DNA of 64,000 bases from a virus, in IMG/VR virus record IMGVR_UViG_3300022602_000029, positions 1 to 64,000 of that record. One strand, given 5' to 3'. Shown in pieces: positions 707 through 41,509 of the stretch. Each line of letters starts with the position of its first letter. Within the stretch, counting starts at the first letter, position 1. The notes under the pieces were generated by a model, which was not told where the DNA came from, ran no database searches, and was given only the letters and a program-made list of their open reading frames with translations. Both the position numbers and the translations under genes were made by a program.

Positions 707-2449
707 ATGTCATGGAAACGTTACTTTACTCCTGTAAATAGATCAGGATCACTCAGCCCAATAAGCGGAGCTAACGGACTCGGATCTATCAGCTCCGGAG
801 TAGGAAGAACAAACTATAGCAGTTACCTTCCAGATGTCTACACGGGTCACCCTAATAGATTAGAGCGATACGGTCAGTATGATACCATGGACATGGACAG
901 CGAAGTAAATGCCGCTTTAGATATTTTAGCTGAGTTCTGTACACAGATGAGCGACGACAATGGAACTCCTTTCCAGATCAGTTTTAAAGAACAGGCCACT
1001 TCTACTGAGATCAAGATTATTAAAAAATATCTACAGCAGTGGACTAAACTGAATAAGTTTGAAAAACGTATTTTTAAGATAGTGCGTAACGCATTCAAAT
1101 ATGGAGACAGTTTTTTCATACGCGATCCAGAAACACAAAGCTGGTTCTATATAGATCCTAGCAAAGTTGATAAGATCATAGTGAATGAAAGCGATGGCAA
1201 AGAAGCCGAGCAGTATATCATACGTGACATAAACGTCAACTTCCAAAATCTAACAGTCACGCAGATCAATCCCACTAATCAAAGTACTACTCCTGGAAAC
1301 ATAGCTTATGTAACAGGTGGTGCTCAACAGCGAGGAATGGCTGCGGGAGGTAATGGCGGTGCCGCGGGAAATAGATTTACTGTAAATCAAAATCAATGGG
1401 CTATTGATGCCAAGAATGTGATACATATCAGCCTGAGCGAAGGTCTTGATAATAACTTTCCGTTTGGAAACAGTCTACTAGAAAGTATCTTTAAGGTTTA
1501 CAAACAGAAAGAATTATTAGAAGATGCTATTATTATCTATCGTGTGATGCGTGCTCCTGAGCGTAGGGTGTTTTATATCGATGTAGGAAACATGCCGCCC
1601 CACTTGGCCATGGGTTTTGTTGAGCGTGTTAAAAACGAAGTAAATCAGCGTCGTTTGCCATCAGTTGCTGGAGGTAGCAGTAGCGTGGTAGACAGCAGTT
1701 ATAATCCTTTAAGCATAACCGAAGACTACTATTTTCCGCAGACAGCTGAGGGTAGGGGCAGCAAGATTGATACACTAGCTGGTGGCACTAACCTGGGAGA
1801 GATTGATGATCTTAGATTCTTTACTAACAAGTTATTTAGAGCTTTACGTATACCATCAAGCTACTTACCAACAGGACCGGATGACGGCGGAAGCAGTTTC
1901 AACGACGGACGAGTCGGAACAGCCTACATACAAGAGCTACGTTTTAACAAATATTGTGAAAGATTACAGTCGTTGATGAACGAGATATTCGATACACAGT
2001 TTAAGTTATACATGAACAAGAAAGGTATCAACATCGATCCTAACCTGTTTGATCTTAAGTTTAATCCTCCACAAAACTTTGCAGCCTACAGACAAGCAGA
2101 AATGGACGGTGTTCGCGTTAACGCATTTACTACCATGGCAGGTGTTCCACATATCAGTAAGCGTTTTGCTCTCAAGCGTTTCTTAGGATTGACACAAGAA
2201 GAGATGGCAGAAAACGAAAAAATGTGGAAAGAAGAAAATGTCGACACTAAAACTAATCTTTCTGCCCAAGCAGAACTACGATCTGCTGGTGTCACTGCTA
2301 GCGGAATCAGCGGCGATATAAACGATCTCGGACAAAGCGCAGAACCTCCTGAAGGAATGGAAGGAGAAGATGTTCCGGGAGCACCTAATCCCCTAGATTC
2401 AGCCGGCGGAGGAGCAACTCCGCAAGGTAGCCCTGCTGCCGGACAGTAA
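707..2449 (+). CDS. 20: Portal vertex protein of head (gp20-like)
   Basis: This 580-residue protein would form the dodecameric portal ring at one head vertex, the site of prohead initiation, DNA packaging and neck attachment. Family signs are the N-terminal RLERYGQYDTMDMDSEVNAA block (about residues 50-70), the SEGLDNNFPFGNSLLESIFK block (about 245-264) with the following helix ending in 'MRAPERRVFYIDVG', and the 'ALRIPSSYLPTG..DGGSSFNDGR' block (about 380-405). T4 gp20 is about 524 residues. The excess here is partly a Gly/Ala/Asn-rich insertion around residues 187-224 and a Gly/Pro-rich C-terminal tail. The ATG lies 4 bases after the preceding stop with little Shine-Dalgarno signal, so translation is probably coupled. 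A late-promoter element overlaps its stop codon. The identification is strong because it heads the canonical 20-21-22-23 order. Confidence 0.95.
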   Translation: MSWKRYFTPVNRSGSLSPISGANGLGSISSGVGRTNYSSYLPDVYTGHPNRLERYGQYDTMDMDSEVNAALDILAEFCTQMSDDNGTPFQISFKEQATSTEIKIIKKYLQQWTKLNKFEKRIFKIVRNAFKYGDSFFIRDPETQSWFYIDPSKVDKIIVNESDGKEAEQYIIRDINVNFQNLTVTQINPTNQSTTPGNIAYVTGGAQQRGMAAGGNGGAAGNRFTVNQNQWAIDAKNVIHISLSEGLDNNFPFGNSLLESIFKVYKQKELLEDAIIIYRVMRAPERRVFYIDVGNMPPHLAMGFVERVKNEVNQRRLPSVAGGSSSVVDSSYNPLSITEDYYFPQTAEGRGSKIDTLAGGTNLGEIDDLRFFTNKLFRALRIPSSYLPTGPDDGGSSFNDGRVGTAYIQELRFNKYCERLQSLMNEIFDTQFKLYMNKKGINIDPNLFDLKFNPPQNFAAYRQAEMDGVRVNAFTTMAGVPHISKRFALKRFLGLTQEEMAENEKMWKEENVDTKTNLSAQAELRSAGVTASGISGDINDLGQSAEPPEGMEGEDVPGAPNPLDSAGGGATPQGSPAAGQ

Positions 2450-2455
2450 TAAATA
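2448..2455 (+). promoter_or_regulatory. T4-type late promoter element (AATAAATA)
   Basis: AATAAATA differs from the T4 late consensus TATAAATA at one base and overlaps the portal stop codon. Only 5 bases separate it from the ATG at 2461. If the start point lies about 6 bases past the element, as in T4, transcription would begin at the A of that ATG, giving a leaderless mRNA. No Shine-Dalgarno sequence is visible. Confidence 0.6.
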
Positions 2456-2460
2456 CTGAC

Positions 2461-2727
2461 ATGCTACTAAACGAATTCATTTATTTTGATCAAGATCGTG
2501 CCGATCCTACGGACAATGATCGCTACGATATCTCTAAAGATACCAGCGTGATCAAGAGCAAGGATCTGCGTAAAAGCCGTTTAACGCTGGGCATGTTGAG
2601 CGATTTGCGAAAAGCAGGTGATGCCCGAGAAAAAGAAACTAGAGAAGATCTAGCTCTAGTACGAGTCATGTATGCTACTCCTACTGAAGAGCAAGGTGGG
2701 GGCGCTCCTGGCGGCCTAGGCATGTAA
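2461..2727 (+). CDS. Small conserved-type protein in the gp67 position of the head block
   Basis: The product is an 88-residue, charged, soluble protein with no membrane segment. It reads 'FDQDRADPTDNDRYDISKD' near the N-terminus, then a basic helical centre (residues 35-65) and a Gly/Pro-rich end. In T4 the small prohead core proteins gp67 and gp68 lie between the portal and protease genes, and this gene occupies that slot. I do not see enough sequence signal to call it gp67. Its late-promoter element overlaps the portal stop codon, and no ribosome binding site precedes the ATG. A role in prohead core or head assembly is inferred from position only. Confidence 0.7.
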   Translation: MLLNEFIYFDQDRADPTDNDRYDISKDTSVIKSKDLRKSRLTLGMLSDLRKAGDAREKETREDLALVRVMYATPTEEQGGGAPGGLGM

Positions 2728-2794
2728 TAAACTGTTAATATAATATTTAGAACTCAAAACTAAATATTTTAGACAGTTTTACAGCATTCGAAGT

Positions 2795-2812
2795 CAAAAA
2801 CGGCCGTTTTTG
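2795..2812. promoter_or_regulatory. Perfect 18-bp palindrome between head genes
   Basis: The sequence CAAAAACGGCCGTTTTTG is exactly self-complementary and sits in the 164-base gap between the small protein and the acidic core protein. A hairpin would have a weak stem, because the GC core must supply the loop. It may be a poor terminator, or a dimeric-protein operator. It lies about 30 bases upstream of a late-promoter element. Confidence 0.4.
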
Positions 2813-2842
2813 GCCTATTTCACGCATCTAATATCAATCGGC

Positions 2843-2850
2843 TGTAAATA
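2843..2850 (+). promoter_or_regulatory. T4-type late promoter element (TGTAAATA)
   Basis: TGTAAATA is one base from TATAAATA and is followed by C as in several other elements here. The predicted start near 2856 leaves a leader of about 36 bases containing a good Shine-Dalgarno sequence (CAGGAG), so the mRNA for the acidic core protein and the downstream protease-scaffold-capsid genes would have an ordinary leader. Confidence 0.6.
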
Positions 2851-2891
2851 CTCCTGATAGCCTTGCCGATCTAACACAGGAGATAAACGCA

Positions 2892-3962
2892 ATGTCAAAA
2901 AAGATGCAACAGCTCTTAGACCTAATTGTTAACGAAGAAACTGAAAAAGCCAACGAACTTTTTCACGAAATCGTTGTAGAGAGATCTAGAGAAATATATG
3001 AAAACCTAATAGCAGAAGAAGAAGAACAAGAGATGGAAGAAGCATCAGAAGATGATGCTGATGATCAAGATCTCGAAGAAGAATCAGAAGACGACCTAGA
3101 AGAAATGTTTGGACAGGGCGCTGACATGGACGACGATCACGGTGATGAAGCCGACACGATCGGCGGAGATCCTGCTGATTCTATGGTTGGAGACACAGAA
3201 GTAGGTCACGATGATAGCGAAGAAAGCGGTGACGCTCCAGCTACTAAAGATGACGTACAAGATCTAGAAGACGCATTAGCAGAACTAAAAGCTGAATTTG
3301 AAGCTTTAATGGGCGGCGAAGGCGATGATGATATGGATATGGATGAGCCAGAAGATGATGACGGCGAAGAAAATCCTTTCGATGATCAAGATGATGACGA
3401 TGACGATAATGACGATGACGATAATGACGATGACGATAATGACGATGACGATTATGATCAAGAAGATGCTGACGAAAGCATGGGTCTACGTGAATATCGC
3501 GAAACTGTTAATCACAACTACGGTGGAAATACACAGAAACAACAAGGTGTAAATATCGGCGGACACACTGGTGAAGATTATCCTGCTCCAAGAGATGTAG
3601 GCAGCAACATCAATAAGAACGCTAAAAACACTATGCCTAACAGCAAAGCTAACGCCAGCAACATCGCCCAAGGTGACGTAGGTGAAGGCGCTATGGACGG
3701 CACAACCACAAACATGCACAAAGGCAAGACAGGACTAGTAGGTAACATCAAAGGTGAATTCACTAAAGGTGTAGAAAAAAATCTAGCTAATAGTGCCAAA
3801 GCTAAAATGAAAGATGGAGCATCTTTAGAAGCTGTTAAGAAAGGTCACGGAGCAGAACGTAAAGGTACTACTCCAGGTCCAGTAGGTTCAGGAACAGGTG
3901 AAAAAGCTGGTCAAACATCTGTAACAAATAGCAAGCAGTTCTTACAACCTTACAAAAAATAA
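2892..3962 (+). CDS. Acidic prohead core/scaffold protein (gp68-like by position)
   Basis: This 356-residue protein has an N-terminal helical segment (residues 1-40, 'LLDLIVNEETEKANELFHEI') resembling the start of T4-type gp68 prohead core proteins. It is followed by a very acidic Asp/Glu region (about 41-200) and a basic, Gly/Lys/Asn-rich C-terminal third ending in 'SKQFLQPYKK'. The densest acidic run (about residues 165-190) is encoded by four tandem 15-base repeats. T4 gp68 is only about 140 residues, so this is much enlarged. It has a good Shine-Dalgarno site and lies directly upstream of the protease gene. A role as internal core protein, removed or processed by the gp21 protease during head maturation, is inferred from position and composition. 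Confidence 0.7.
   Translation: MSKKMQQLLDLIVNEETEKANELFHEIVVERSREIYENLIAEEEEQEMEEASEDDADDQDLEEESEDDLEEMFGQGADMDDDHGDEADTIGGDPADSMVGDTEVGHDDSEESGDAPATKDDVQDLEDALAELKAEFEALMGGEGDDDMDMDEPEDDDGEENPFDDQDDDDDDNDDDDNDDDDNDDDDYDQEDADESMGLREYRETVNHNYGGNTQKQQGVNIGGHTGEDYPAPRDVGSNINKNAKNTMPNSKANASNIAQGDVGEGAMDGTTTNMHKGKTGLVGNIKGEFTKGVEKNLANSAKAKMKDGASLEAVKKGHGAERKGTTPGPVGSGTGEKAGQTSVTNSKQFLQPYKK
3396..3455 (+). repeat. Four tandem 15-bp repeats encoding Asp/Asn
   Basis: The unit GACGATGACGATAAT is present three times exactly, with a fourth copy differing at one base (ATTAT end). It encodes (DDDDN)n inside the acidic prohead core protein, keeps frame, and is a likely site of length variation by slippage. 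Confidence 0.9.
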
Positions 3963-3966
3963 TTAG

Positions 3967-4602
3967 ATGAAACTAACTTCATATCTAAGAGAAAACCTAA
4001 GTTTTGATCAGGCTCGTGTTGAACTACACGAGGCTGACGAACATGGAAAGAAAAATCTTTATCTAAAAGGTATTGCTATCCAAGGTGGAATCAAGAACGC
4101 TAATCAACGTGTGTATCCAGTAAGTGAGATTACTAACGCAGTAAAAACACTTAATGATCAGATACAGAACGGGTATAGCGTGCTAGGTGAAGTTGATCAT
4201 CCTGATGATTTAAAAGTAAATTTAGACCGTGTATCACACATGATAACAGATATGTGGATGGACGGCCCAAATGGTTACAGTAAGATGAAAATCTTACCTA
4301 CACCGATGGGTAACTTGATTCGTACTATGCTCGAAAGCGGCGTAAAACTTGGTGTTAGTTCTAGAGGCAGCGGCAACGTTGATGATAGGACAGGCGAAGT
4401 AGCAGAGTTTGAGATAATCACAGTTGATATAGTTGCTCAGCCCAGCGCACCTGGCGCTTATCCTACACCAGTTTATGAACATCTCATGAACACACGTGGT
4501 GGAAATAGAATATTAGGTGTTGCTAAAGAAGTAAAAGAAGATCCAAAGGCCCAGAAATATCTTAAGGAATCACTCCTTAATATAATAAAAGGTCTAAAAT
4601 AA
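3967..4602 (+). CDS. 21: Prohead core protein protease (gp21-like)
   Basis: This 211-residue serine protease would cleave the head scaffold and the capsid precursor inside the prohead. The diagnostic blocks are 'GEVDHPDD' (catalytic His about residue 78) and 'GVKLGVSSRGSG' (nucleophile Ser 131 or 132), with 'FEIITVDIVAQPSAPGAYP' after it. The spacing agrees with T4 gp21, whose catalytic His and Ser sit in equivalent blocks. It starts 4 bases after the acidic core protein gene and is followed 18 bases later by the scaffold gene. T4-type gp21 cleaves after (Leu/Ile)-x-Glu, and a matching site is present in the capsid protein here (see that entry). Confidence 0.95.
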   Translation: MKLTSYLRENLSFDQARVELHEADEHGKKNLYLKGIAIQGGIKNANQRVYPVSEITNAVKTLNDQIQNGYSVLGEVDHPDDLKVNLDRVSHMITDMWMDGPNGYSKMKILPTPMGNLIRTMLESGVKLGVSSRGSGNVDDRTGEVAEFEIITVDIVAQPSAPGAYPTPVYEHLMNTRGGNRILGVAKEVKEDPKAQKYLKESLLNIIKGLK

Positions 4603-4620
4603 GCCCGAGGAGAAAGATAG

Positions 4621-5712
4621 ATGTTGGACGCATTCAAACAGTTAGTAGAATCAGGAGCTCTGTCAGAGGAACACACCACTGCACTAGAGTCTGCTTTTGC
4701 TCAAAAAATCCAAGAGAATCGCGACCAAGTCACTGCTGAACTACGTGAAGAATTTGCAGGCAAGTATGAGCACGATAAAGGGCTCATGGTTGAGGCAGTC
4801 GACAAGTTGTTGAGCGAAAGATTGGCCGCAGAAATGGCTGAACTTGCTGAAGATAAAAAGGCCCTAGCGGAAGCTAAAGTCGCTTATCAACGCAAGATGG
4901 CAAATGATGCTAAAGTAATGGAATCATTTGTTATTAAACAGCTGACAAAAGAGTTAGGCGAGTTCCAAAGCGATCGTAGAAAAGTCGCAGAAAACTTCGC
5001 TAAGTTAGAGGGATTCATAGTCCATGCTCTAGCTAAAGAGATCAGAGAATTTGCTATCGATAAGAAGAGCGTAGTTGAAACGAAAGTTAAACTAGTTCGC
5101 GAAGCAAAAGAAAGATTTGAAGTAATCAAGAAACAGTTTATACAACGTAGTTCTAAGGTAGTTGAAGCCGCAGTAACAGCTAAGTTAACATCTGAAATCA
5201 AGCAGTTGAAAGAAGATATTGATTCAGCACGCACAAACAACTTTGGTCGTCGTATATTCGAAGCATTCGTACAGGAATACAATGGTTCTTTTCTAAATGA
5301 AAAATCTGAAACAGCTAAACTGTTGAAGGTTATCGCTAAGAAAGATCAAGCCCTGGCCGAAGCACAAGATGCACTATCACAAAAAGAAACTATCGTTGAA
5401 TCTAAAAACCGCGAACTCCGCGTAGCTAAAGATTTAATGGAGCGTAAGGCAGTGATGGGTGAGTTGTTAGCTCCTTTGGGCGCTGACAAAAGAGAACTCA
5501 TGAAAGATTTGTTAGAATCAGTACCCACTAAGAAATTGAATGAGAGTTTTGAGAAATACCTACCAGCAGTAATGGAAGGCGAGACAAAGCGTGTAGTACA
5601 AAAAACTACACTAACTGAAGGTACCGCTGTCACAGGAGATCGTGGAGCACCGACTCCCGGGGTAGGCTTAGATAACATTTTAGATATCCGCAAACTCGCG
5701 GGACTAAAATAA
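4621..5712 (+). CDS. 22: Prohead core scaffolding protein (gp22-like)
   Basis: This 363-residue protein is almost entirely Glu/Lys/Ala-rich and predicted helical, with long coiled-coil stretches (about residues 20-330). The end is a short Gly/Pro-rich linker followed by 'LDNILDIRKLAGLK', which resembles the C-terminal docking tail of scaffold proteins. It lies between protease and major capsid protein exactly as gene 22 does in T4, and is longer than T4 gp22 (about 270 residues). The Shine-Dalgarno sequence CGAGGAG is clear. It would form the internal core around which the capsid shell assembles and would be degraded by gp21. Several (Leu/Ile)-x-Glu tripeptides are present as possible protease sites. 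Confidence 0.9.
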   Translation: MLDAFKQLVESGALSEEHTTALESAFAQKIQENRDQVTAELREEFAGKYEHDKGLMVEAVDKLLSERLAAEMAELAEDKKALAEAKVAYQRKMANDAKVMESFVIKQLTKELGEFQSDRRKVAENFAKLEGFIVHALAKEIREFAIDKKSVVETKVKLVREAKERFEVIKKQFIQRSSKVVEAAVTAKLTSEIKQLKEDIDSARTNNFGRRIFEAFVQEYNGSFLNEKSETAKLLKVIAKKDQALAEAQDALSQKETIVESKNRELRVAKDLMERKAVMGELLAPLGADKRELMKDLLESVPTKKLNESFEKYLPAVMEGETKRVVQKTTLTEGTAVTGDRGAPTPGVGLDNILDIRKLAGLK

Positions 5713-5736
5713 TTTAGAAAATTCAAGGAGACATAA

Positions 5737-6918
5737 ATGTCACAACTATTAAATGAAAGATGGTCCGAGACCAGGGAAGCTCTGCTTGAAGGCCTACAAG
5801 GTAACCGTCGTGCTTCTATGGGCGTATGCTTAGAGAACACACGTAAGTACCTAGCAGAAGCCGCAACAAGTGGTGCTACAAGCTCTGGAAATATCGCAAC
5901 TTTAAATCGCGTTATTCTTCCAGTTATCCGTCGTGTTATGCCAACAGTTATTGCTAACGAAATCATCGGTGTACAACCAATGACAGGTCCAGTAGCTCAG
6001 ATCCATACACTACGTGTCCGTTATGCTGATACATCATCAGGCGATGGTATCGTAGCAGGTGAAGAGGCATTATCACCATTCAAGATCGCCGCTGCCTATT
6101 CTGGTAACAACCAGGACGCAACTCCAGCTGCCGCTTCAACATCGGCTCTTGAGGGTGCACCAGGTAAGCGTATGAGCATCCAAATCTTGAAAGCACCTGT
6201 AGAAGCTAAGTCACGCAAGCTATCAGCTCGCTGGACCTTCGAGGCTGCACAAGATGCACAAGCTCAACAAGGTATTGATATCGAAGCAGAAATCATGGCT
6301 GCTCTAGCTCAAGAAATTACAGCTGAGATCGACCAAGAGATCTTAACTTCACTACGTACTTTAGCGTCAGTTGAATTAACATACGACCAATCGTTAGTAT
6401 CTGGTACAGCAACATTCGTTGGTGATGAGCATGCCGCATTGGCAATCATGATCAACCGTGCTGCCAACTTGATCGCTCAACGTACACGTCGTGGTGCTGC
6501 AAACTGGGCAGTTGTTTCTAACCAGGCTCTAACGATCCTACAAAGCGCAACTACATCAGCATTTGCTCGTACTACAGAAGGCACATTCGAAGCTCCAACA
6601 AATACAAAATTCGTTGGTACATTGAACGGTGCTATGCGTGTTTATGTTGACGCATACAAGTCTGATACAGACAACAACAACCAAGTATTACTAGGTTATA
6701 AAGGTGCTAGTGAGGCAGATGCTGCCGCGTTCTATTGCCCATATATTCCTTTAATGTCTTCTGGTGTTGTTCTTGATCCAGCAACATTCGAACCAGTAGT
6801 TGGCTTCTTGACACGCTACGGCTATGTCCAGTTGTCTAACACTGCTTCTTCACTAGGTAACGCCGCAGATTACCTAGCTAAAGTTGCTATCAACAGCTCA
6901 ACAGTTAGCTTCCAGTAA
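5737..6918 (+). CDS. 23: Major capsid protein precursor (gp23-like)
   Basis: The product is a 393-residue HK97-fold capsid protein. Family blocks are 'LPVIRRVMPTVIANEIIGVQ' followed by 'PMTGP' (about residues 62-86) and the C-terminal 'FYCPYIPLMSSGVVLDPATF' with 'EPVVGFLTRYGYV' (about 328-362), matching T4 'VRRAIPNLIAFDICGVQPM' and 'FYCPYVPL...GFKTRYG'. The N-terminal 41 residues end in 'KYLAE|AATSG', which fits the gp21 cleavage rule (Leu-x-Glu) and lies where T4 gp23 is processed, so the mature form probably begins at Ala42. T4 gp23 is 521 residues, so this one is notably compact and probably has a reduced insertion domain. It has a strong Shine-Dalgarno sequence (AAGGAG) and is followed by a terminator. 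Confidence 0.96.
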   Translation: MSQLLNERWSETREALLEGLQGNRRASMGVCLENTRKYLAEAATSGATSSGNIATLNRVILPVIRRVMPTVIANEIIGVQPMTGPVAQIHTLRVRYADTSSGDGIVAGEEALSPFKIAAAYSGNNQDATPAAASTSALEGAPGKRMSIQILKAPVEAKSRKLSARWTFEAAQDAQAQQGIDIEAEIMAALAQEITAEIDQEILTSLRTLASVELTYDQSLVSGTATFVGDEHAALAIMINRAANLIAQRTRRGAANWAVVSNQALTILQSATTSAFARTTEGTFEAPTNTKFVGTLNGAMRVYVDAYKSDTDNNNQVLLGYKGASEADAAAFYCPYIPLMSSGVVLDPATFEPVVGFLTRYGYVQLSNTASSLGNAADYLAKVAINSSTVSFQ

Positions 6919-26550: not shown

Positions 26551-29500
26551 ATGGCAAAACTACTCGGCGGCACGATAATATACGGTACAGGAACTATCCA
26601 ATCTACACTATATGTAGGAGGGATACTCAATACGGGCACGGCAGTATCGAACTCGACTATCACAGGAGCCCTACAGGTAGTTGGTGGTGTCGGGGTAGGC
26701 GGTAACATCAACGCAGGCGGCTATATCACTGCCCAAAGCGGATTCTATGCTGTCAATACCTACACCGGAGGTTATAGTGACGGCATAGTAGTCGACTATG
26801 TCAATGGAACTATAGGTAATGGACGTATCAGTGTTGGCCCTCAAGATAATATCACATTCTACAATGGTGGTCCTGCGACTACAGCTACCATGCAGATTTC
26901 TTCAAGCGGTACTGTTTATGTTCCAACAGGCATCACATCAAACTCTACGCTCACAGGCAGTCTTGTAGTAGCAGGCGGAGTTGGCATCGGCGGTAACCTG
27001 TACGTAGGTGGTATCATCGCCGGTTCCATAAGCAGTTCAACCAATATATCTGGAGGACAAGCTGGTTATATTCCTATACAGAGTGCTCCTAACGCTACTA
27101 GTTTTATAGGTACAGGTAGTGTAGGTTATGTGCTACAGATGCAGATCAACAACACAGCTACTTGGGTAAGTACTGGTTCTTTGGGTATTAGCGGAGGCGG
27201 AGGCGGCAGCTTAAACGCCTATTGTAGCTACTATGTAACTAGCCCAACTGTGTCTACTAGCGGTGTCAATAACATAGCTATCGGATGTTGTGCTTTAAGT
27301 AATAATACTACTGGGTGTAACAATCTAGCACTAGGTTATGGATCTCTTAGATTAAACACCACTGGGACCAGTAACTTCGCCGTGGGCTATAGGACGTTGG
27401 CAGGTAACACAGGTGGATTTAATAATATCGCCATAGGATGCTGTGCGCTGTTAGGCAACACATTTGGATCTAGCAACTTTGCGGTTGGTTCGCAGACACT
27501 GGGAAAGAATACCTATGGCTGCAATAATACAGCGATAGGATCAGGAGCACTAGCTAACAATACTACAGGAAGTCAAAATTTCGCCGCAGGTCCTAATGCA
27601 CTTGGAAACAATACGTTTGGTAACAACAATACAGCTATTGGGCAGGGTGCGTTGCTTGCCAATACCACAGGAAGCAATAACTTTGCTGTGGGTTATGCCG
27701 CACTCCGAGCCAACACAGGGGGAGGAAATAATCTAGCCCTGGGTACATGGGCTATGACCAATAGCATAACTGGACAGAATAACATAGCATTAGGTTATCA
27801 ATCCATGAGCTTCTATGTGGCAGGATGTAACAATATTGCCTTAGGTGTAAACTCTTTATATGGATTAGCTGGCACTTATGGATCTAATAATGTAGCTATA
27901 GGTGGTAACACCATGCGTGCCAATACCACTGGTTCTAATAATACAGCTATTGGGTATGGATCCTTGAAATCCAACGTCACTGGCTGCAACAACGTGGCTA
28001 TCGGCTATTATGGAATGCATAATAACATCTCCGGTCAGGCTAACACGGCTATAGGATATCAAACATTATATAATAACACCGGAGGTAACTTTAACACAGC
28101 GATCGGTTGTTATGCTTTATTCTGCAATACCACAGGTTGCTATAACACGGCTATAGGTCCTAGCGCATTGTATTTCAACACAGGTAGCGGTAATACTGCT
28201 ATAGGATGTCTAGCACTAAATCTAAACACCTATGGCTGCATGAACATAGCTATCGGTAATAGCGCTATGAGGTGCAACCTTACTGGCTGTAATAATATAG
28301 CATTTGGCAATAATTCCATGTGTGGAAACCTAAATGGTAGCCATAACTTTGCCGCAGGCTGTCAGTCGCTTAACAATAACACCGCAGGTAACTATAACAC
28401 AGCGATAGGCGTCAACGCATTATTTTGTAACACTACTGGATCTAATAATACCGCGTTAGGAAATAGTGCTTTATACCTTAACTGCACGGGATCAAACAAC
28501 ATAGCTATAGGATCTAGTGCTCTTGTTAAAAATACCTACGGTAATTCTAATATAGCATTGGGTTATCAGTCTTTATGTGCCAATACTACAGGACAGAATA
28601 ATATCGCCATGGGCACCTGTGCTTTGGTAGCTAACAATACAGGCAGTTTTAACGTAGCCATAGGTTGTAATGCGTTATATGGCAATACTAGCGGTAACTA
28701 CAACAATGCTGTAGGTGTTTTTTCTCTAAGGAACAGTACTACTGGTATAGCCAACTTCGCAGGAGGTTACGCAGCCTTATCAAGTAATTCATCAGGTAGT
28801 TACAATACAGCAATAGGTCATTGTTCGATGGCTTATAATAATACCGGTAACTGTAATATAGCATTAGGTCCTTATTCCTTATATGGTATAGTCACAGGAT
28901 GTAATAACTTTGCCGCAGGTGCTTATGCTCTTTTCAGCAATACAGGAGGCTGTGCTAACGTGGCCATCGGCCTTAGCGCTCTTAACAAAAACACCACTGG
29001 TTATGGAAACGTAGGCATTGGTGCTAATTCTGGATACAACAATACTTCAGGATGTGATAACATATCCGTGGGAATCTGTGGATTATACTGTAATATAAGC
29101 GGCAGCCATAACATAGCTATCGGAGCCTGTGCATTATATGCCAATACCGGCACCAACAACGTGGCTCTTGGATTTACTGCTTTAAGAAATAACAGCTGGG
29201 GCTATGGCAACATAGCAGTGTCTAGAGGAGCTCTGTGCCATAACACATATGGACAGAATAATATCGGTCTTGGTAGTCTTTCTCTATATTGCAACACCGT
29301 AGGCTGTAGCAACTTTGCGGCAGGTGTATGCGCTTTATATTCTAACACCGCTGGTAATAGCAATATAGCTATAGGCGCCAGCGCCTTGCTTTACAATACG
29401 ACCGGCTATAATAACATAGCGATGGGCTGTTTATCATTGTTTTCTAACACTAGTGGTTACAACAACATCGCCATGGGCTATCAGGCCCTGTATCTCAATA

Positions 29501-32500
29501 CCTATGGAGTCCATAATATAGCGTTTGGACAGGCAGCAGGCTATTCTTTAACGACCGGTAGTAGCAACTTCGCCGCGGGATATACTGCTCTTAACAACTT
29601 AACTACTGGTTGTTCAAACATAGCCATAGGTATGCGAGCCTTATTCTGCAGTACCTATGGTGGCGGAAACTTTGGAGCCGGTGGCTACACTCTGTTTAAT
29701 AACACCACTGGCTGTAACAACACAGCTATAGGTTGCTATGCTGGCTGCGGATATACCGTTAATGGAGGTAATAACAACGTAGCGATAGGTTATCAAGCAT
29801 TGTATTGCAATACCGTGTCTAATAACATAGCTATAGGCTATAGGAGCATGTTCGCCAACACCTACGGAGCGCAAAACATAGCCCTAGGAAGCCAGACATT
29901 GGCTAGTAATATCAGCGGAACTACAAACATAGCCATAGGCTGTAACTCACTACAATTCAATACCGGCGGTAGTTGTAACGTGGCACTAGGTTATGGATCT
30001 CTACGATTTAATACCACAGGTTCCGGAAACTTCGCAGTGGGCTGTAATGCTTTATATTCTAACACCGGCGGTAGCGGTAACACGGCCATCGGAACTGGCG
30101 CTTTAGGCTCCAATGTTATAGGAGGAAGTAATTTCGCTGCTGGTCAGGGCTCATTAGGCAGCAATATCAGTGGCTGTAATAACGTGGCCATCGGCCAGAA
30201 CGCATTAGGCAAGAACTATTGTAATCATAATTTCGCCGCTGGCTATCAGGCCATGTATAATAACACCGGAGGTAGTGGTAATACCGCTATCGGTTGTTTC
30301 GCATTAAATGCCAATACTTATGGCGTCATGAACATAGGTATCGGTAATAGCGCACTGGTGAAAAACACCACAGGTAACTGGAACATAGCCTTAGGTAATA
30401 ACAGTTTATACTATAACACAGGTGGATGTAACAACTTTGCCGCAGGATGCCTAGCATTGTTCTGTAACACTACAGGTAACAACAATATAGCTGTAGGTAA
30501 TAATGCGCTTTATGGCAATAGCGGAGGTATGATGAACGTGGCCCTAGGGTGTTTTGCCTTGCAGGCCAATACTACAGGTAGCAATAACTTCGCTGTTGGT
30601 TATGCTACATTATACCGCAACACTATAGGTAATAATAATGTCGCCATAGGTTCGGCCTCGCTATATGGTAATCAGACGGGCTGTAGCAATATCGCTATTG
30701 GTCCCAATGCTCTAAGATGTAACACGTCGGGCAGTCATAATATAGCATTAGGCTGTGCGGCCATGCTGTGTAATACCTGTGGCTACAACAACGTAGCTAT
30801 AGGACAGAACGCATTAATATGTAATACTACAGGAAACCAAAACGTTGCGCTGGGGCAGAATACCTTATATTTTAATACCGGTGGTAGCTACAATATGGCC
30901 ATAGGTAGCTGTGCCCTTTTCAGAAATATATGTGGTAGTAATAATATGGCCATGGGTATATATACCTTAGCCAGCAATACCTATGGAAGTTACAACGTTG
31001 GTATCGGTGACTGTGTGTTAACTAAAAATACAGCAGGTGTTTATAACTTCGCATTTGGCCACGGTGCCATGTATGGTAATACCTACGGTAGTTATAATGT
31101 TTCGTTGGGAGGAAGAGGATTATGCTGTAACCTAAGCGGTTGTTATAACATAGCATTGGGATATAATTCTTTAGCACAGAATACTGCTGGTAACTGTAAC
31201 ATAGCATTCGGAGTGTGTAGTTTATTCGCTAATACTACCGGTGTTAACAACTTTGCCGCAGGTGCCGGCGCACTAACTAGCAATACCACAGGTTGCGGAA
31301 ATACAGCTATAGGCTGTGCCGCACTTTGCAATCACACAACCGGTATAAACAACTTCGCTGTAGGCGGAGGAGCCATGAAGAATGTTACCTATGGTGCCAA
31401 CAACACAGCATTTGGATTCTTTTCGTTATATTGTAGCCTAATCGGTTCCAACAATACTGCTATCGGTTGCGCATCAATGCAGTATAACACAGGTAGCCAA
31501 AATATTGCGGTCGGGGCTTATACACTAAGAGGAGCCAATGGCGCCTGCAACTGCGGAGGTTGCAACATCGCGATGGGCTATAGTTCGATGTCTTGTAATA
31601 CATACGGAAGCACTAACGTGGCATTAGGTTTTCAGACATTGAATTGTAATATCAGCGGTAGCAATAACGTAGCTATCGGCTCCAATGCCATGACCTGTAA
31701 TATAGCCGGTTACAATAACATCGCTATAGGTAACCTGCCGTTGGTTTCTAACACAGGCGGTACCTACAACGTGGCGCTAGGTGCGAGGAGCATGTACGGT
31801 AATACTACTGGTAGTGGAAATATAGCTATTGGCTGCCAGTCACTGTGCGCCAATACGGTAGGTGGTTCTAACATCGCGCTAGGTGGTCAGGCCATGTTCT
31901 GTAACATCAGCGGCGTAAACAATGTGGCCATTGGCCAGAGTGCTCTTTACAGCAACACCATAGGCTGTAACAATCTAGCTATCGGACTATTTTCTCTTTG
32001 TGGCAATACCAATGGTGTGCATAATGTTGCGTTAGGACGAGAAACTCTATACTACAACACAGCTGGTAACTTTAATACTGCTATCGGTTATTGCTCACTT
32101 TATAACAATACAGTAGGCACTAGTAACATAGCTATCGGCTGCCAGACGCTTGTTAGCAATACCGCCGGAAATTATAATCTAGCGATGGGAGTCAACGCAC
32201 TATGCTCTAATACATATGGTTTAAATAACATAGCTTTAGGTTACACTGCGTTATCAAAAAATACCACTGGCGGTCAAAATATTGCTATTGGATGCCAGAA
32301 TTTGTTTGCCAACACTGTCGGCGGGCAGAATATCGCTATGGGTAGTAACGCTATGTTCTTCAATACATCGGGCTGTTGCAATATTGCTATAGGTAGCGCC
32401 GCATTATATGGCAACACAGGAGGTAGTGATAATACTGCTATCGGCCAAGGCGCACTACAGAAAAATGCCACAGGTTGCCATAACGTAGCGATTGGCTATG

Positions 32501-35172
32501 CAACATTAAACGTTTCTACTGGTACTGTATGTAATATAGCTATTGGCTTCCAAGCCATGCGCTACAACACATATGGTAATTGTAACATCGCTGTTGGTAT
32601 AAATGCCTTATTACGTAATACATGCGGTTGTTTAAACATAGCACTTGGTACGAAAGCCTTATATGGTAATGTGTGCGGCTGTAATAACTTTGCTGTAGGG
32701 TACGGAACATTACGTAACAACACAGGTGGTAGTTACAATATCGCTATGGGCTTTGTATCCATGTGTGCGAACACCACCGGTGTCAACAATATCGCCTTAG
32801 GAGCATGCACTTTATATAACAACACCTACGGTTGCAATAATATAGCGATAGGATTGTCGGCTTTATGCTACAACACTACTGGTATCAATAACTTCGCCGC
32901 TGGTTACCAAGCTCTAACAGCCAACACGAGCGGTAACAATAACATAGCTATAGGCTTGTGCGCACTATCAGCCAACACAACAGGTAATGCCAACGTAGCA
33001 CTGGGATGGTTATCTCTATGTAAAAACACTACTGGACAGAATAACGTGGCTATAGGCTGCAATACCTTGCTATACAATACCTATGGATACAACAACTTTG
33101 CTTCCGGTATCAATGCCATGCGTTGTAATACTACAGGTTGTAATAACGTGGCCATAGGTCCTGGTTCGATGCAGTTAAACTGCTGCGGATCTTTTAATAT
33201 AGCAATAGGTCCATCTACCTTGTATTGTAATACCGCAGGTAACTACAATGTAGCATTAGGTGGCAACGCACTCTATGGAAATATTACTGGGTCATTTAAT
33301 ACTGCTATAGGACTAAATGCGTCTTACTGTAATCAATTTGGCAGTGGTAACTTTGCCGCAGGTTTCTGTGCTCTTTACAATAATACAGCCAGCGGCAACC
33401 TAGCTATAGGCTGTACGGCTATGGTCTTTAACACCACTGGACAGAATAACATAGCACTAGGTACGAATTCTCTCTGTGCTAATACCAGCGGTTGCACTAA
33501 CGTAGCGGTAGGATATGGAGCTTTAAGGCAAAATACCACAGGCAACGCTAACGTAGCGATAGGTGTATATACACTGGCATGCAATACCACTGGCTTTTGT
33601 AATATCGCTATAGGAGCCTCCGCCCTAGTCAATAATACGGCTGGCTGTATCAACATCGCAATCGGTGGTGGCGCTATGGGCGCTAATACTACCGGTTATG
33701 GCAATAATGCCATAGGAGTTACAGCACTAGGCTGTAATCAAGGAGGAAACTTTAACGTAGCGATAGGCCAACGTGCCGCTTGGGCCAACACCGCAGGTAG
33801 CCAGAACGTAGCTATAGGACAATGTAGTCTACGCTGTAATAGTCTAGGAAGCAATAACCTAGCTATCGGTGGACAGGCTACGATGTGTCTCAGCACAGGC
33901 TCTTGTAATATAGGTATAGGTTCATTCGCTGGATGTGCTATCACTAGCGGTAACGGCAATGTGGTAATAGGCGGCTATGGCGGAACTAACATGGCTACCA
34001 ATAATAACACAGTGGTCATAGCCGATGGTTCTGGTAATGTCAAGATGGGATTCACCAATACCGGAGCTATGTTTGTAGGTTCGAATATAACCAACTTTGG
34101 TGCCAATGGACAGGTACTGCAGTCATTTGGTCCTGGAGGAGCTCCTAACTGGGTCAATCCTGCCAGCATCACAGTAGGTACTGGAACCAACGCACTCAAC
34201 AGCTATGTTACTGATGATAGTTCAACAGGCAATCCAGAATATGTAACATTCGTCAATGCTACCAATACCTATACGGGTATAAGGTCTAACAGCGCCAGTT
34301 TTACTTACCAACCTAATATAGGACTGTTGACTACCCCGTCGCACTACATATCTAGCACAGCGGCCAACACAGCTACTACATCTAGCAACGCACTTTATGT
34401 AGCAGGTGGTTCATATCTAAACAGCCTGTTTGTATTGAATCAGGCCACATTTGCTGGACCAGTGGTATTCAACGGAACTGCTACCTATGTCTACAGTACT
34501 AATACAGTATATACAGATAACATCATAGAACTACATGCTCCTCCCGGAGGAGTCAACGGTCAATGGGCCTATGATGATGGCAAGGACATCGGACTCCGCT
34601 TCCATTATTTCAATAGATCTGTTAGCACTGACAGCAATGCCGCACTGGTATTGGCCGACGATAGCCAATATCTAGAATTCTACAATCTAGGTGCTGAATC
34701 TAATACAGGAACGTTCAGCGCAGGAACACCTACCTACGGAACATTCAAGACCGGTGCTATCAAGCTGGTAGGAGGCACTACCGCCACTTCTATCACTAGT
34801 GGTGATATGACAGTAACGGGAGGCGTAGGCATAGGAAAGAGTCTCTATGTCAATGGTAGCATCGTATTAAATGGATCTCCATTAACTACCCAGCAGGCCA
34901 TGACCACCTATGAGTTTACGTCAGGCATCAATTCATCTACATTCACTATCAGCGGTGGATATACCGTAGGACAGATAGAAGTTTACAGTAATGGTGTTTT
35001 AATGAACTCGGGAGATTATGTAGCCACTAACGGCAGCACGGTGGTGTTTAATGCTCCGAGAAATCAAGGAGATCTAATATCAGTAAGAACTTTCGTATCG
35101 TTTGGAGTAGCAGGTAGCACCATGGCCAGCAAGTCCTACGCAACAGCCATAGCCACCGCTATGGGCATGTAA
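26551..35172 (+). CDS. Giant fibre protein (2873 aa) with about 130 17-residue beta-roll-like repeats
   Basis: The N-terminus 'MAKLLGGTIIYGTGTI' is shared with two other genes here. It is followed by two GGVGIGG shaft repeats and 'LNAYCSYYVTSPTVSTSGV' (about residues 220-240). From residue 238 to about 2470 the protein is a tandem array of 'GxNNIAIGxxALxxNTT', period exactly 17 in most units. The core resembles the NxAxG repeats of YadA-type trimeric heads and of bacterial fibre proteins carrying S74 domains, so a trimeric left-handed beta-roll is inferred. Cysteine is frequent at fixed repeat positions. The C-terminal 400 residues hold a 'YDDGKDIGLRFHYF' module, one GGVGIGK repeat and a final 'TISGGYTVGQIEVYSNGVLM' beta module. 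There is no S74 domain, signal peptide or anchor. Confidence 0.9.
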   Translation: MAKLLGGTIIYGTGTIQSTLYVGGILNTGTAVSNSTITGALQVVGGVGVGGNINAGGYITAQSGFYAVNTYTGGYSDGIVVDYVNGTIGNGRISVGPQDNITFYNGGPATTATMQISSSGTVYVPTGITSNSTLTGSLVVAGGVGIGGNLYVGGIIAGSISSSTNISGGQAGYIPIQSAPNATSFIGTGSVGYVLQMQINNTATWVSTGSLGISGGGGGSLNAYCSYYVTSPTVSTSGVNNIAIGCCALSNNTTGCNNLALGYGSLRLNTTGTSNFAVGYRTLAGNTGGFNNIAIGCCALLGNTFGSSNFAVGSQTLGKNTYGCNNTAIGSGALANNTTGSQNFAAGPNALGNNTFGNNNTAIGQGALLANTTGSNNFAVGYAALRANTGGGNNLALGTWAMTNSITGQNNIALGYQSMSFYVAGCNNIALGVNSLYGLAGTYGSNNVAIGGNTMRANTTGSNNTAIGYGSLKSNVTGCNNVAIGYYGMHNNISGQANTAIGYQTLYNNTGGNFNTAIGCYALFCNTTGCYNTAIGPSALYFNTGSGNTAIGCLALNLNTYGCMNIAIGNSAMRCNLTGCNNIAFGNNSMCGNLNGSHNFAAGCQSLNNNTAGNYNTAIGVNALFCNTTGSNNTALGNSALYLNCTGSNNIAIGSSALVKNTYGNSNIALGYQSLCANTTGQNNIAMGTCALVANNTGSFNVAIGCNALYGNTSGNYNNAVGVFSLRNSTTGIANFAGGYAALSSNSSGSYNTAIGHCSMAYNNTGNCNIALGPYSLYGIVTGCNNFAAGAYALFSNTGGCANVAIGLSALNKNTTGYGNVGIGANSGYNNTSGCDNISVGICGLYCNISGSHNIAIGACALYANTGTNNVALGFTALRNNSWGYGNIAVSRGALCHNTYGQNNIGLGSLSLYCNTVGCSNFAAGVCALYSNTAGNSNIAIGASALLYNTTGYNNIAMGCLSLFSNTSGYNNIAMGYQALYLNTYGVHNIAFGQAAGYSLTTGSSNFAAGYTALNNLTTGCSNIAIGMRALFCSTYGGGNFGAGGYTLFNNTTGCNNTAIGCYAGCGYTVNGGNNNVAIGYQALYCNTVSNNIAIGYRSMFANTYGAQNIALGSQTLASNISGTTNIAIGCNSLQFNTGGSCNVALGYGSLRFNTTGSGNFAVGCNALYSNTGGSGNTAIGTGALGSNVIGGSNFAAGQGSLGSNISGCNNVAIGQNALGKNYCNHNFAAGYQAMYNNTGGSGNTAIGCFALNANTYGVMNIGIGNSALVKNTTGNWNIALGNNSLYYNTGGCNNFAAGCLALFCNTTGNNNIAVGNNALYGNSGGMMNVALGCFALQANTTGSNNFAVGYATLYRNTIGNNNVAIGSASLYGNQTGCSNIAIGPNALRCNTSGSHNIALGCAAMLCNTCGYNNVAIGQNALICNTTGNQNVALGQNTLYFNTGGSYNMAIGSCALFRNICGSNNMAMGIYTLASNTYGSYNVGIGDCVLTKNTAGVYNFAFGHGAMYGNTYGSYNVSLGGRGLCCNLSGCYNIALGYNSLAQNTAGNCNIAFGVCSLFANTTGVNNFAAGAGALTSNTTGCGNTAIGCAALCNHTTGINNFAVGGGAMKNVTYGANNTAFGFFSLYCSLIGSNNTAIGCASMQYNTGSQNIAVGAYTLRGANGACNCGGCNIAMGYSSMSCNTYGSTNVALGFQTLNCNISGSNNVAIGSNAMTCNIAGYNNIAIGNLPLVSNTGGTYNVALGARSMYGNTTGSGNIAIGCQSLCANTVGGSNIALGGQAMFCNISGVNNVAIGQSALYSNTIGCNNLAIGLFSLCGNTNGVHNVALGRETLYYNTAGNFNTAIGYCSLYNNTVGTSNIAIGCQTLVSNTAGNYNLAMGVNALCSNTYGLNNIALGYTALSKNTTGGQNIAIGCQNLFANTVGGQNIAMGSNAMFFNTSGCCNIAIGSAALYGNTGGSDNTAIGQGALQKNATGCHNVAIGYATLNVSTGTVCNIAIGFQAMRYNTYGNCNIAVGINALLRNTCGCLNIALGTKALYGNVCGCNNFAVGYGTLRNNTGGSYNIAMGFVSMCANTTGVNNIALGACTLYNNTYGCNNIAIGLSALCYNTTGINNFAAGYQALTANTSGNNNIAIGLCALSANTTGNANVALGWLSLCKNTTGQNNVAIGCNTLLYNTYGYNNFASGINAMRCNTTGCNNVAIGPGSMQLNCCGSFNIAIGPSTLYCNTAGNYNVALGGNALYGNITGSFNTAIGLNASYCNQFGSGNFAAGFCALYNNTASGNLAIGCTAMVFNTTGQNNIALGTNSLCANTSGCTNVAVGYGALRQNTTGNANVAIGVYTLACNTTGFCNIAIGASALVNNTAGCINIAIGGGAMGANTTGYGNNAIGVTALGCNQGGNFNVAIGQRAAWANTAGSQNVAIGQCSLRCNSLGSNNLAIGGQATMCLSTGSCNIGIGSFAGCAITSGNGNVVIGGYGGTNMATNNNTVVIADGSGNVKMGFTNTGAMFVGSNITNFGANGQVLQSFGPGGAPNWVNPASITVGTGTNALNSYVTDDSSTGNPEYVTFVNATNTYTGIRSNSASFTYQPNIGLLTTPSHYISSTAANTATTSSNALYVAGGSYLNSLFVLNQATFAGPVVFNGTATYVYSTNTVYTDNIIELHAPPGGVNGQWAYDDGKDIGLRFHYFNRSVSTDSNAALVLADDSQYLEFYNLGAESNTGTFSAGTPTYGTFKTGAIKLVGGTTATSITSGDMTVTGGVGIGKSLYVNGSIVLNGSPLTTQQAMTTYEFTSGINSSTFTISGGYTVGQIEVYSNGVLMNSGDYVATNGSTVVFNAPRNQGDLISVRTFVSFGVAGSTMASKSYATAIATAMGM
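27262..33960 (+). repeat. 51-bp tandem repeat array (about 130 units)
   Basis: Each 51-base unit encodes one 17-residue 'GxNNIAIGxxALxxNTT' repeat. Units are diverged at the DNA level, with synonymous codons well mixed, so this array looks older than the one at 49350-51760. A few units are one to several residues longer or shorter (for example near 27860-27890 and 31530-31560), but the reading frame is kept throughout. Confidence 0.9.
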
Positions 35173-35183
35173 AGGAAAAACAA

Positions 35184-35543
35184 ATGACCACACCATCAAA
35201 TCCATTATCGCTACTGTTTAACAACAGTGGACAGGCTACATTCAATAATACTGTTACGGTCACTAGTATAGCTATCAGCAACAGCACCAATACAGGTGCT
35301 TTGATAGTAGCAGGTGGACACGCTGTTGGAGGAAATCTCTATGTGGGCAATACAGCCGCGATATTATCTCCTGCATTATCGCTTTCTACAGCATCAGGAG
35401 CGTTGACAGTACAAGGTGGTGTAGGAGTAGCTGACAGTATATACGCAGGTAATCGAGTAGGTTGGGGATCAACGACCGGCACTTCTGTAGCATATCAAGT
35501 ATATAATTCTGCAGTTGGCAGTATAGATTTATATTTTGGATAA
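35184..35543 (+). CDS. Short fibre-shaft protein, first half of the second two-gene module
   Basis: This 119-residue protein has two shaft repeats ('NTGALIVAGGHAVGGNLYVG' and 'ASGALTVQGGVGVADSIYAG', about residues 38-57 and 76-95) and ends 'AYQVYNSAVGSIDLYFG', paralogous to the short proteins at 24265 and 38006. An AAAGGA ribosome binding site lies in the 11-base gap after the giant fibre. The junction TTTGGATAATGGC with the next gene is identical in both TAATG pairs. It probably associates with, and sets the stoichiometry of, the LamG protein that follows; this is inferred. Confidence 0.8.
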   Translation: MTTPSNPLSLLFNNSGQATFNNTVTVTSIAISNSTNTGALIVAGGHAVGGNLYVGNTAAILSPALSLSTASGALTVQGGVGVADSIYAGNRVGWGSTTGTSVAYQVYNSAVGSIDLYFG

Positions 35544-37984: not shown

Positions 37985-37990
37985 TCTTAG

Positions 37991-37998
37991 AATAAATA
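37991..37998 (+). promoter_or_regulatory. T4-type late promoter element (AATAAATA), leaderless arrangement
   Basis: The element is 7 bases before the ATG at 38006, with no Shine-Dalgarno sequence. The block from the element through the first coding bases (ATGGCAAAACTACTC) closely matches 26536-26565, indicating a duplicated promoter-plus-start cassette. Confidence 0.7.
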
Positions 37999-38005
37999 CA
38001 ACACT

Positions 38006-38569
38006 ATGGCAAAACTACTCCCCGGCACACGAATTTATGGTACAGGTACCGTCGACAGCACCTTTTTTATCAATGGTACTGCTGTATCTACTTCAACTAA
38101 CACTGGGGCATTGATAGTAGCAGGCGGCGCCGCAGTTGGCTATAACTTATTTGTCGGTAGCCAAGCACTGATTGGGCAGTCTACCGTAACAATTACGGGT
38201 GTTGCAAGTGGATTTATAGCTAGTCCTGCGTTTATTCTCGGCGGGCAGACTACCGACAGTATGTATTTTAGACGTAACAGTAATGGTAACTATGCTCTAC
38301 AAACAAACAACGGGAACAACGCAGGTAATATAGCATTACAACCATATGGTGGACAGGTAGCTATTGGAACTAACGGAGTCTTACAAGCAAGTTCACCGAG
38401 TACAACTTCGACACAAACCGGTGCTCTAGTTGTCCAAGGCGGTATAGGAGTAGGAGATAGTGTTTATGTTGGTAACCGTGTAGGATTTGTTTCCACAGTT
38501 ACCAATGCCAGCGCGGTATATCAGATATATAATTCAATAACAAATAGTTTAGATACCGTGTTTGGATGA
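38006..38569 (+). CDS. Fibre-shaft protein, first half of the third two-gene module
   Basis: This 187-residue protein starts 'MAKLLPGTRIYGTGTVDSTF', the same cassette as the giant fibre at 26551. It carries two shaft repeats ('NTGALIVAGGAAVGYNLFVG' and 'QTGALVVQGGIGVGDSVYVG') separated by a short beta segment with 'SMYFRRNSNGNYALQTNNGN'. It ends 'AVYQIYNSITNSLDTVFG', the conserved end of the short partner genes. The downstream ATG lies 3 bases after its TGA rather than overlapping it. This copy joins the leaderless 5' cassette to the short-partner ending, showing how modules have been recombined. Confidence 0.8.
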   Translation: MAKLLPGTRIYGTGTVDSTFFINGTAVSTSTNTGALIVAGGAAVGYNLFVGSQALIGQSTVTITGVASGFIASPAFILGGQTTDSMYFRRNSNGNYALQTNNGNNAGNIALQPYGGQVAIGTNGVLQASSPSTTSTQTGALVVQGGIGVGDSVYVGNRVGFVSTVTNASAVYQIYNSITNSLDTVFG

Positions 38570-38572
38570 TCG

Positions 38573-40819: not shown

Positions 40820-40825
40820 AAATAC

Positions 40826-40833
40826 AATAAATA
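40826..40833 (+). promoter_or_regulatory. T4-type late promoter element (AATAAATA), leaderless arrangement
   Basis: Again the element is exactly 7 bases before the ATG (40841) and no Shine-Dalgarno sequence is visible. This is the third copy of the promoter-start cassette. Confidence 0.7.
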
Positions 40834-40840
40834 TCATACT

Positions 40841-41509
40841 ATGGCAAGACTTCAAAGCGGAACAAGGATATACGGCACAGCAACAGTTGACACGATTTTA
40901 TTCGTCAACAGTACCGCCACTGCTGTTTCAACTAGCACGGGCGCACTAGTAGTAGCAGGCGGTGCGGGATTCAATGGAAATATATATTTCAATGGAAATC
41001 TATACCAGAATGGAGCTCTTTTTACCAGCGGTGTTAGTACAGGAACCACATCTACTTTTTTTATAAACAACAACACACAGAGTACCAGCACTAATACAGG
41101 TGCACTGGTAGTAGCAGGCGGTGTAGGCGTAGGTGGCAATATCTACGCAGGTGGCGCTTTATTTGCTGTTACCAAGTCATTCCTGATCGAACATCCTACC
41201 AAACCAGGTATGAAACTGCGTTACGGAAGCCTAGAAGGTCCTGAAAATGGCGTCTATGTGAGAGGAAGATTGAAAGGAACTACTACTATTGAACTACCGG
41301 ACTATTGGTCAAAACTAGTTGACCCTGAAAGTGTCACAGTTCAAATCACACCAATAGGTCGTCACCAGAAGTTATTCGTGCAAGAGATCACAAACAATCA
41401 AGTAATCATAGAAAATGATGCACTGTTTGGCGGTAGCATCGACTGCTATTATGTCATATTCGCCGAGCGTGCTGATACTGATAAACTAGCAGTCGAGATA
41501 CCAGGATGA
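40841..41509 (+). CDS. Fibre protein with shaft repeats and a C-terminal 'KSFLIEHP' domain
   Basis: The 222-residue product starts 'MARLQSGTRIYGTATVDTIL', like the proteins at 26551 and 38006. It has two shaft repeats ('STGALVVAGGAGFNGNIYFN' and 'NTGALVVAGGVGVGGNIYAG'). Residues about 110-222 form a separate domain: 'KSFLIEHPTKPGMKLRYGSL', 'EGPENGVYVRGRLKG', 'IELPDYWSKLVDPESVTVQI', 'DCYYVIFAERADTDKL'. This domain type recurs at the C-termini of phage fibres and bacterial proteins related to S74-bearing fibres. I know it as a recurring sequence block, not as a module of known function. It is followed by three LamG-type genes joined by ATGA overlaps, so this unit probably encodes one multi-subunit adhesin. 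Confidence 0.8.
   Translation: MARLQSGTRIYGTATVDTILFVNSTATAVSTSTGALVVAGGAGFNGNIYFNGNLYQNGALFTSGVSTGTTSTFFINNNTQSTSTNTGALVVAGGVGVGGNIYAGGALFAVTKSFLIEHPTKPGMKLRYGSLEGPENGVYVRGRLKGTTTIELPDYWSKLVDPESVTVQITPIGRHQKLFVQEITNNQVIIENDALFGGSIDCYYVIFAERADTDKLAVEIPG

Follow-up and report, generated by a model that had tools for sequence, protein, structure and literature searches.

Surface cysteines of 17-residue repeat fibres and a linked GT9-like gene in aquatic phages: a candidate case of S-linked glycosylation

Arrays of a 17-residue repeat found in phage fibres fall into two sharp classes of cysteine content, with inverted placement of cysteine between the core and the surface of the unit, and the arrays rich in surface cysteine are associated with a phage gene of the GT9 (heptosyltransferase-like) type. 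The two-class rule, this association and the heptose-type enzyme families recognised nearby lead us to propose that the exposed cysteines of the putative beta-roll fibres may be acceptors of S-linked glycans added by the GT9-like enzyme. We regard this reading as evenly balanced between right and wrong. The locus examined lies in the window, that is the whole stretch of 64,000 nucleotides analysed, which is part of a 193,746-base IMG/VR record.

The array fibre and its fold

Features of the locus are collected in Table 1. The gp20, gp21-type and gp23 genes place it in a large T4-superfamily phage, and the best matches of the capsid protein are from jumbo phages, at 68-70% identity. The gene of interest, which sits within a phage structural cluster, had been described beforehand, from the letters alone, as a 2873-residue fibre made of about 130 tandem 17-residue repeats with strict 51-base periodicity and a frame always kept. 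The reading frame is indeed real and intact. Parsing of its translation by a position-weight and dynamic-programming procedure gave 132 contiguous units between residues 238 and 2483 (array 1), and all 131 spacings between them are in frame. As 122 spacings are exactly 17 residues and nine are not (16 residues in six cases, 19 in two and 21 in one), the word “strict” was slightly overstated. Amino-acid self-identity of the protein reaches 0.354, 0.335 and 0.324 at lags 17, 34 and 51 respectively, a signal well beyond chance; of the remaining lags from 5 to 59, just lag 28 exceeds 0.12, with a value of 0.121. The consensus unit is G-x-N-N-[IVFT]-A-[ILV]-G-x-x-[AST]-[LM]-x-x-N-T-x, with G1, N4, A6 and G8 near-invariant (G8 and N4 in 132 of the 133 parsed units each, A6 in 123, and N15 in 115). 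At the DNA level self-identity at lag 51 is 0.453, and Tandem Repeats Finder did not report array 1, the copies being too diverged. Such divergence points to an old repeat maintained at the protein level, rather than to a recent DNA expansion.

Table 1. Features of the fibre locus and of related loci. Positions are those of the window unless another record is named.
Feature	Position	Strand	Basis or remark
T4-type head genes (gp20 portal, gp21-type protease, gp23 capsid)	707..6918	+	
2873-aa fibre protein	26551..35172	+	ORF exact, uninterrupted; PHROGs 23837/6002 (virion structural), 4636 (tail spike)
N-terminal part, 237 aa, TGALQVVGGVGVGGN-type motif	26551..27261	+	translation; phage tblastn
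Array 1: 132 contiguous 17-aa predicted beta-roll units, 120 Cys	27262..33999	+	unit parse
Array cap and C-terminal modules	34000..35169	+	translation
Sister fibre, 2529 aa	44996..52585	+	119 units in two blocks, similar cap module closing each; 4.1% Cys
Sister fibre, 791 aa	59407..61782	+	29 units; 4.3% Cys; C-terminal Peptidase_S74 chaperone (PF13884, E 2e-9)
Sister fibre (array 4), 1130 aa	61784..64000, ends at record position 65176	+	46 units; 5.1% Cys
GT9-like glycosyltransferase gene	record 65190-66176, beyond the window		starts 14 bp after array 4; PF01075
8-12%-Cys proteins (S-CAM3, S-CAM1, S-SSM7, Sf-FS3, P-SSM2)	L256 8300-11118, L257 8329-11129, L258 7929-10322, L259 7964-10377, L016 20199-23065		

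The repeat had also been likened to the trimeric rolls of YadA-type heads. AlphaFold modelling of eight units with a 66-row alignment of relatives predicted with confidence a beta-solenoid (pLDDT 91.6), each unit of the modelled monomer contributing a single short strand (positions 5-7). The best PDB match of this model in Foldseek was the YadA-like head of BoaA (3s6l; probability 0.98, E=0.05, TM 0.46), with CbpF, the AtaA C-head and EibD lower in the list; a single-sequence AlphaFold model (pLDDT 68) gave no significant match in the PDB search. The YadA layer is written GxNSVAIGAxSxAx, and known heads take insertions at the 14/1 junction (PMC9543794). The 17-residue unit aligns with this layer, with three extra residues at that same junction. 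The model and its Foldseek match partly support assignment of the protein to a YadA/BoaA-type beta-roll, which would probably be trimeric. The part of the earlier reading that was overstated is the “extremely long” fibre: since 20 layers of BpaC span 89.5 Å (PMC9543794), 132 layers would measure about 59 nm, and one array among the sampled IMG/VR contigs (in L076) is longer, with 164 contiguous units. Extreme length was thus rejected as a novelty.

The fibre as such belongs, judging by its sequence, to a known type, and its repeat is common in phages and bacteria. Profile matches to PHROGs 23837, 6002 and 4636 had E values from 0 to 6e-284 over 17-31 stretches. By tblastn, the repeat was found in 94 phage records, including P-SSM2, HTVC111P, CRP-1/7 and SPO1 gp2.52, and in the bacterial and archaeal genome set mostly in Bacteroidetes; YadA-like domains have already been described in pelagiphage fibres (PMC3909814). 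The phage fibres of these PHROGs, among them the P-SSM2 tail spike, the HTVC111P tail fibre and SPO1 gp2.52, have a repeat identical in type to that of array 1, which is far longer than the named examples parsed (6-31 units) and, unlike most of them, carries surface cysteines. With the YadA-like heads (YadA, BoaA, BpaC, UspA1, CbpF) array 1 shares the GxNxVAIGxxS-type layer and the invariant G at position 8, and the solvent-facing variable positions 2 and 10 of these heads are counted as a further likeness. Their layers have 14 residues (15 in UspA1) against 17 in array 1, where an extra NTT stands at the 14/1 junction, and BpaC has 42 layers against 132. Array 1 differs from them as well in lacking a Pfam match, in being part of a phage gene, and in its roughly one surface cysteine per layer. 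No membrane beta-barrel anchor, a feature of trimeric autotransporter adhesins, was found by Pfam in 26551-35172. Outside the array, tblastn found no relative of the N-terminal 237 residues among phages, and no homologues of the C-terminal region were found in IMG/VR; cyanophage tail fibres share one C-terminal module of the protein (query residues 292-382).

Array 1 is not alone in the window. Three sister arrays (Table 1) form parts of one system with it, which the preliminary description had overlooked. At 35543-44971, proteins of LamG/concanavalin fold stand in succession with related ones, all with common phrog_8510 C-termini; they are likely to be alternative receptor-binding tips. The window also encodes, at 56847-57875, a 342-residue protein of 43% Gly+Asn, whose GC content (58%) is well above that of its neighbours.

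Two classes of arrays by cysteine placement

The cysteine pattern is a further feature that had been overlooked, as was the glycosyltransferase cassette, described below, that lies just past the window. All but one of the 121 cysteines of the 2873-residue protein are inside array 1, about one per unit, and the three complete arrays of the window contain 4.1-4.3% cysteine, against at most 1.5% in every other window protein. Within the arrays of this record, cysteines occupy almost only the exposed, variable columns 2, 3, 9, 10, 13 and 14, with a few at 1, 16 and 17, and are absent from the core columns 4-8, 11, 12 and 15.

A first, larger sample of IMG/VR records, from which the structure rows and most of the surface-cysteine records were drawn, had been collected with a [CQ] DNA pattern that favours cysteine. 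The class test was instead made on a sample gathered with a cysteine-neutral pattern; in both cases, the records are mostly fragments and mutually non-independent. Among the matches listed in the neutral sample, 88 arrays were low in surface cysteine, 22 were rich and 3 were intermediate. The 88 low arrays contained 8 surface and 86 core cysteines in 2355 units, whereas the 22 rich arrays contained 435 surface cysteines (about 0.65 per unit) and 2 core cysteines in 665 units. Core cysteines were therefore some tenfold rarer in the rich class, at 3.0 against 36.5 per 1000 units of the listed arrays. Arrays on one contig shared their class, and the bacterial arrays all belonged to the low class (30 of 30), again among the matches listed. 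At exposed columns, cysteine alone discriminates strongly between the two classes (log2 odds +7.8); every other residue stays within ±0.94. A depletion of acidic residues in cysteine-rich arrays, seen in the first sample (rho -0.62), fell to only -0.10 in the cysteine-neutral sample and was rejected.

This distribution bears on the simplest alternative, namely that array 1 is an ordinary YadA-like shaft and that cysteine accumulated in some lineages by neutral compositional drift. The occurrence of the unit in phages and bacteria alike would suit drift, as would a weak correlation of GC3 and NNC codon use with cysteine content. A two-class distribution with a near-empty middle and an inverted placement, among the matches listed, argues against it, as do the equal mean GC3 of both classes (0.20 vs 0.21) and the lack of a comparable shift for any other residue. 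We find drift very improbable.

The sites themselves are not fixed. Comparison with G007, a relative of this phage (G000), gives 95% identity for the GT9-like protein, but alignment of the neighbouring arrays reaches only 40-48%, which indicates a much faster turnover of the arrays than of the enzyme. Individual cysteine sites were no more conserved between the two phages than other exposed residues. All five G007 arrays nevertheless keep a cysteine content of 3.2-5.2% despite site turnover, as expected of many redundant acceptors.

Linkage to a GT9-like gene

Just downstream of array 4 begins a cassette (record positions 65190-71639) which encodes, in order, the GT9-like protein, a NodU-like carbamoyltransferase, a sulfotransferase, an unknown gene product, a GmhB-like phosphatase, a GT1 enzyme and an APS-kinase-like protein. 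The first gene matched PF01075 (GT9) at E 1.8e-7, above the family cut-off, and the NCBIfam heptosyltransferase III model at E 2e-8, with a score far below the NCBIfam cut-off; the GmhB-like heptose-bisphosphate phosphatase was recognised at E 1.8e-25 (NCBIfam). When a profile of the GT9-like family was compared with the PDB, the only glycosyltransferases matched were LPS heptosyltransferases (E 0.0016); the family's resemblance to these enzymes is remote.

Genes following surface-cysteine arrays were enriched for sulfotransferases and GT1/GT9 enzymes. The GT9-like family was present in 34 of 48 surface-cysteine contigs and in 1 of 48 cysteine-free contigs (Fisher p=2.5e-13, the contigs being not fully independent); it was also found in this record, HTVC111P and HTVC112P, and in 1 of 9 other named phages. 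At matched contig sizes, in bins tallied by hand from record lengths, the counts were 12/19 vs 0/14 for 30-60 kb and 7/10 vs 0/17 for 17-30 kb (p 1.6e-4 and 1.4e-4). Over whole records, sulfotransferases were found in 28/48 vs 1/48 contigs, and GT1 enzymes in 22/48, of which 21 exceeded the family cut-off, vs 3/48. In this record and in HTVC111P/112P, L077, L169 and L172, the GT9-like gene is immediately adjacent to an array gene or overlaps with it. It occurs both in jumbo T4-type phages and in pelagiphages of 32 kb, in the latter overlapping with the array gene, and clustering of the family at 50% identity leaves four singletons and four clusters of several members. Fourteen of the 48 surface-cysteine contigs lack the gene, many of them being short fragments and one reaching 86 kb; as a counterexample, L215 has a GT9-like fragment beside a cysteine-free array.

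As a prediction test, phages were chosen only by the presence of a GT9-like gene, and its neighbours were checked for cysteine-rich fibre proteins. Such fibre-type proteins were mostly found nearby, often with other folds. The array of P-SSM2 is cysteine-free, yet two Gly-rich proteins, each with 36 cysteines (10.1%), precede the GT9-like gene of this phage. Within about 5 kb of the GT9-like gene, three proteins of 8-12% cysteine are encoded in each of S-CAM1, S-CAM3, S-SSM7 and Sf-FS3, and in the whole S-CAM3 genome the three beside that gene are the only ORFs of at least 150 residues with at least 8% cysteine. Proteins of 9-11% cysteine lie near the gene in AG-345-O18 and AG-345-P14, and AG-345-L05 has a surface-cysteine array (36 surface, 0 core cysteines) about 15 kb away. 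In Aeromonas HJ05 the adjoining gene product contains 4.1% cysteine, and in Vibrio D505 the neighbour has only 2.3%.

Cyanophage cassettes include genes annotated as heptose kinase/adenylyltransferase, phosphoheptose isomerase and epimerase. As side observations, the two or three proteins of 8-12% cysteine just upstream of the cyanophage GT9-like gene are “hypothetical” and partly Gly-rich; the heptose cassettes contain a cupin-sized gene annotated “cysteine dioxygenase” (L256 16240-16596, L257 16226-16579, L258 21027-21428), and some also hold 2OG oxygenases. Elsewhere in record G000, beyond the window (127827-137318, or L012 9827-19318), a 262-residue protein with 12.6% cysteine, CTCNCNY repeats and a terminal Peptidase_S74 chaperone lies amid five radical-SAM proteins, one with SPASM. 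It represents a second fibre-type protein hyper-rich in cysteine, which radical-SAM enzymes may modify.

A candidate S-linked glycan coat and its alternatives

In the mechanism we propose, the likeliest of those considered, the GT9-like enzyme would transfer a sugar, probably heptose from a heptose nucleotide, onto exposed cysteines of the fibre, and the adjacent carbamoyl- and sulfotransferases would further decorate it. The outcome would be a densely glycosylated fibre surface on the virion, which may tune adsorption or protect the fibre. Cysteines of the core would be modified or mispaired, and would for this reason be kept out of the core in the rich class. Acceptor function would thus explain why surface cysteines are dense and interchangeable between sites, and why core cysteines are excluded in that class only.

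Literature searches returned nothing relevant on S-glycosylation or on cysteine-rich phage fibres. The nearest parallel is that of TibC and AAH, which hyperheptosylate TibA and AIDA-I on serine (PMC4358343): there too, a heptosyltransferase-like enzyme acts on a repetitive beta adhesin, but the acceptor is serine and the substrates are secreted bacterial proteins, instead of cysteine and a phage protein as proposed here. TibC and AAH also have a four-cysteine iron finger, whereas the alignment of the phage GT9-like family contains no invariant cysteine. Mycobacteriophage virion proteins are glycosylated at the C-termini of capsid and tail tube proteins (Freeman 2023, cited in PMC12619734); these are likewise phage virion proteins, but in the account given there the modification has no link to cysteine.

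Surface cysteines might instead form disulfides or thiol cross-links, within the roll, between trimer chains or between fibres, and so stiffen the released fibre, the glycosyltransferases being unrelated neighbours. With about 0.9 exposed cysteine per unit in stacked layers, many thiols would be within mutual reach, and core cysteines could be excluded to avoid mispairing. A disulfide ladder was nevertheless rejected, as strong enrichment was seen for none of the exposed column pairs or layer offsets. The clearest signal is a depletion of adjacent pairs, with 36 observed against 73 expected for columns 13-14 of one unit and 24 against 52 for 9-9 pairs of adjoining layers; its degree is not matched by Ser, Asn or Tyr, and the cysteine sites are not specially conserved. 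Cross-linking would moreover leave unexplained the link of the GT9-like gene to the arrays and to cysteine-rich proteins of other folds, and we think it unlikely. We are similarly doubtful of a reading in which the cassette alters the LPS or capsule of the host, as in superinfection exclusion, with cassette and cysteine-rich fibres each marking certain aquatic phages independently. For pelagimyophages, the glycosyltransferases encoded in the host-recognition region have been interpreted in print as modifying the host O-chain (PMC7029224), and genes for sugar nucleotides, carbamoyltransferases and sulfotransferases would suit a role in polysaccharide modification too. Also in favour, gp23 is present in 22/48 surface-cysteine vs 1/48 cysteine-free contigs, a comparison confounded by fragment size. 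Against this stand the persistence of the GT9-like association at matched contig sizes, the overlap of the GT9-like gene with the fibre gene in 32-kb pelagiphages with surface-cysteine arrays, and the large T4-like cyanophage S-H9-1, whose repeat has little cysteine and which lacks the GT9-like gene. Independent marks would also not account for cysteine-rich neighbours being predicted when phages are picked by this gene alone.

Returning to S-linked glycosylation, we tentatively extend it, with slightly more doubt than confidence, to pelagiphages, cyanophages and large aquatic phages in common: GT9-like enzymes would S-glycosylate many exposed cysteines of virion adhesins with several mutually unrelated folds (17-residue beta-rolls, Gly-rich proteins), with optional carbamoylation and sulfation. 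Even if the modification reading is wrong, the two-class rule and its inverted core/surface placement still demand explanation. If it is right, the widespread “LPS biosynthesis” genes that marine and aquatic phages carry would be re-assigned to the decoration of their own adhesins, the 10%-cysteine hypothetical proteins of cyanophages would be accounted for, and the density of exposed cysteines would become a simple sequence signature of glycosylated fibres. S-linked glycosylation would then join virion biology, as a new class of protein glycosylation.
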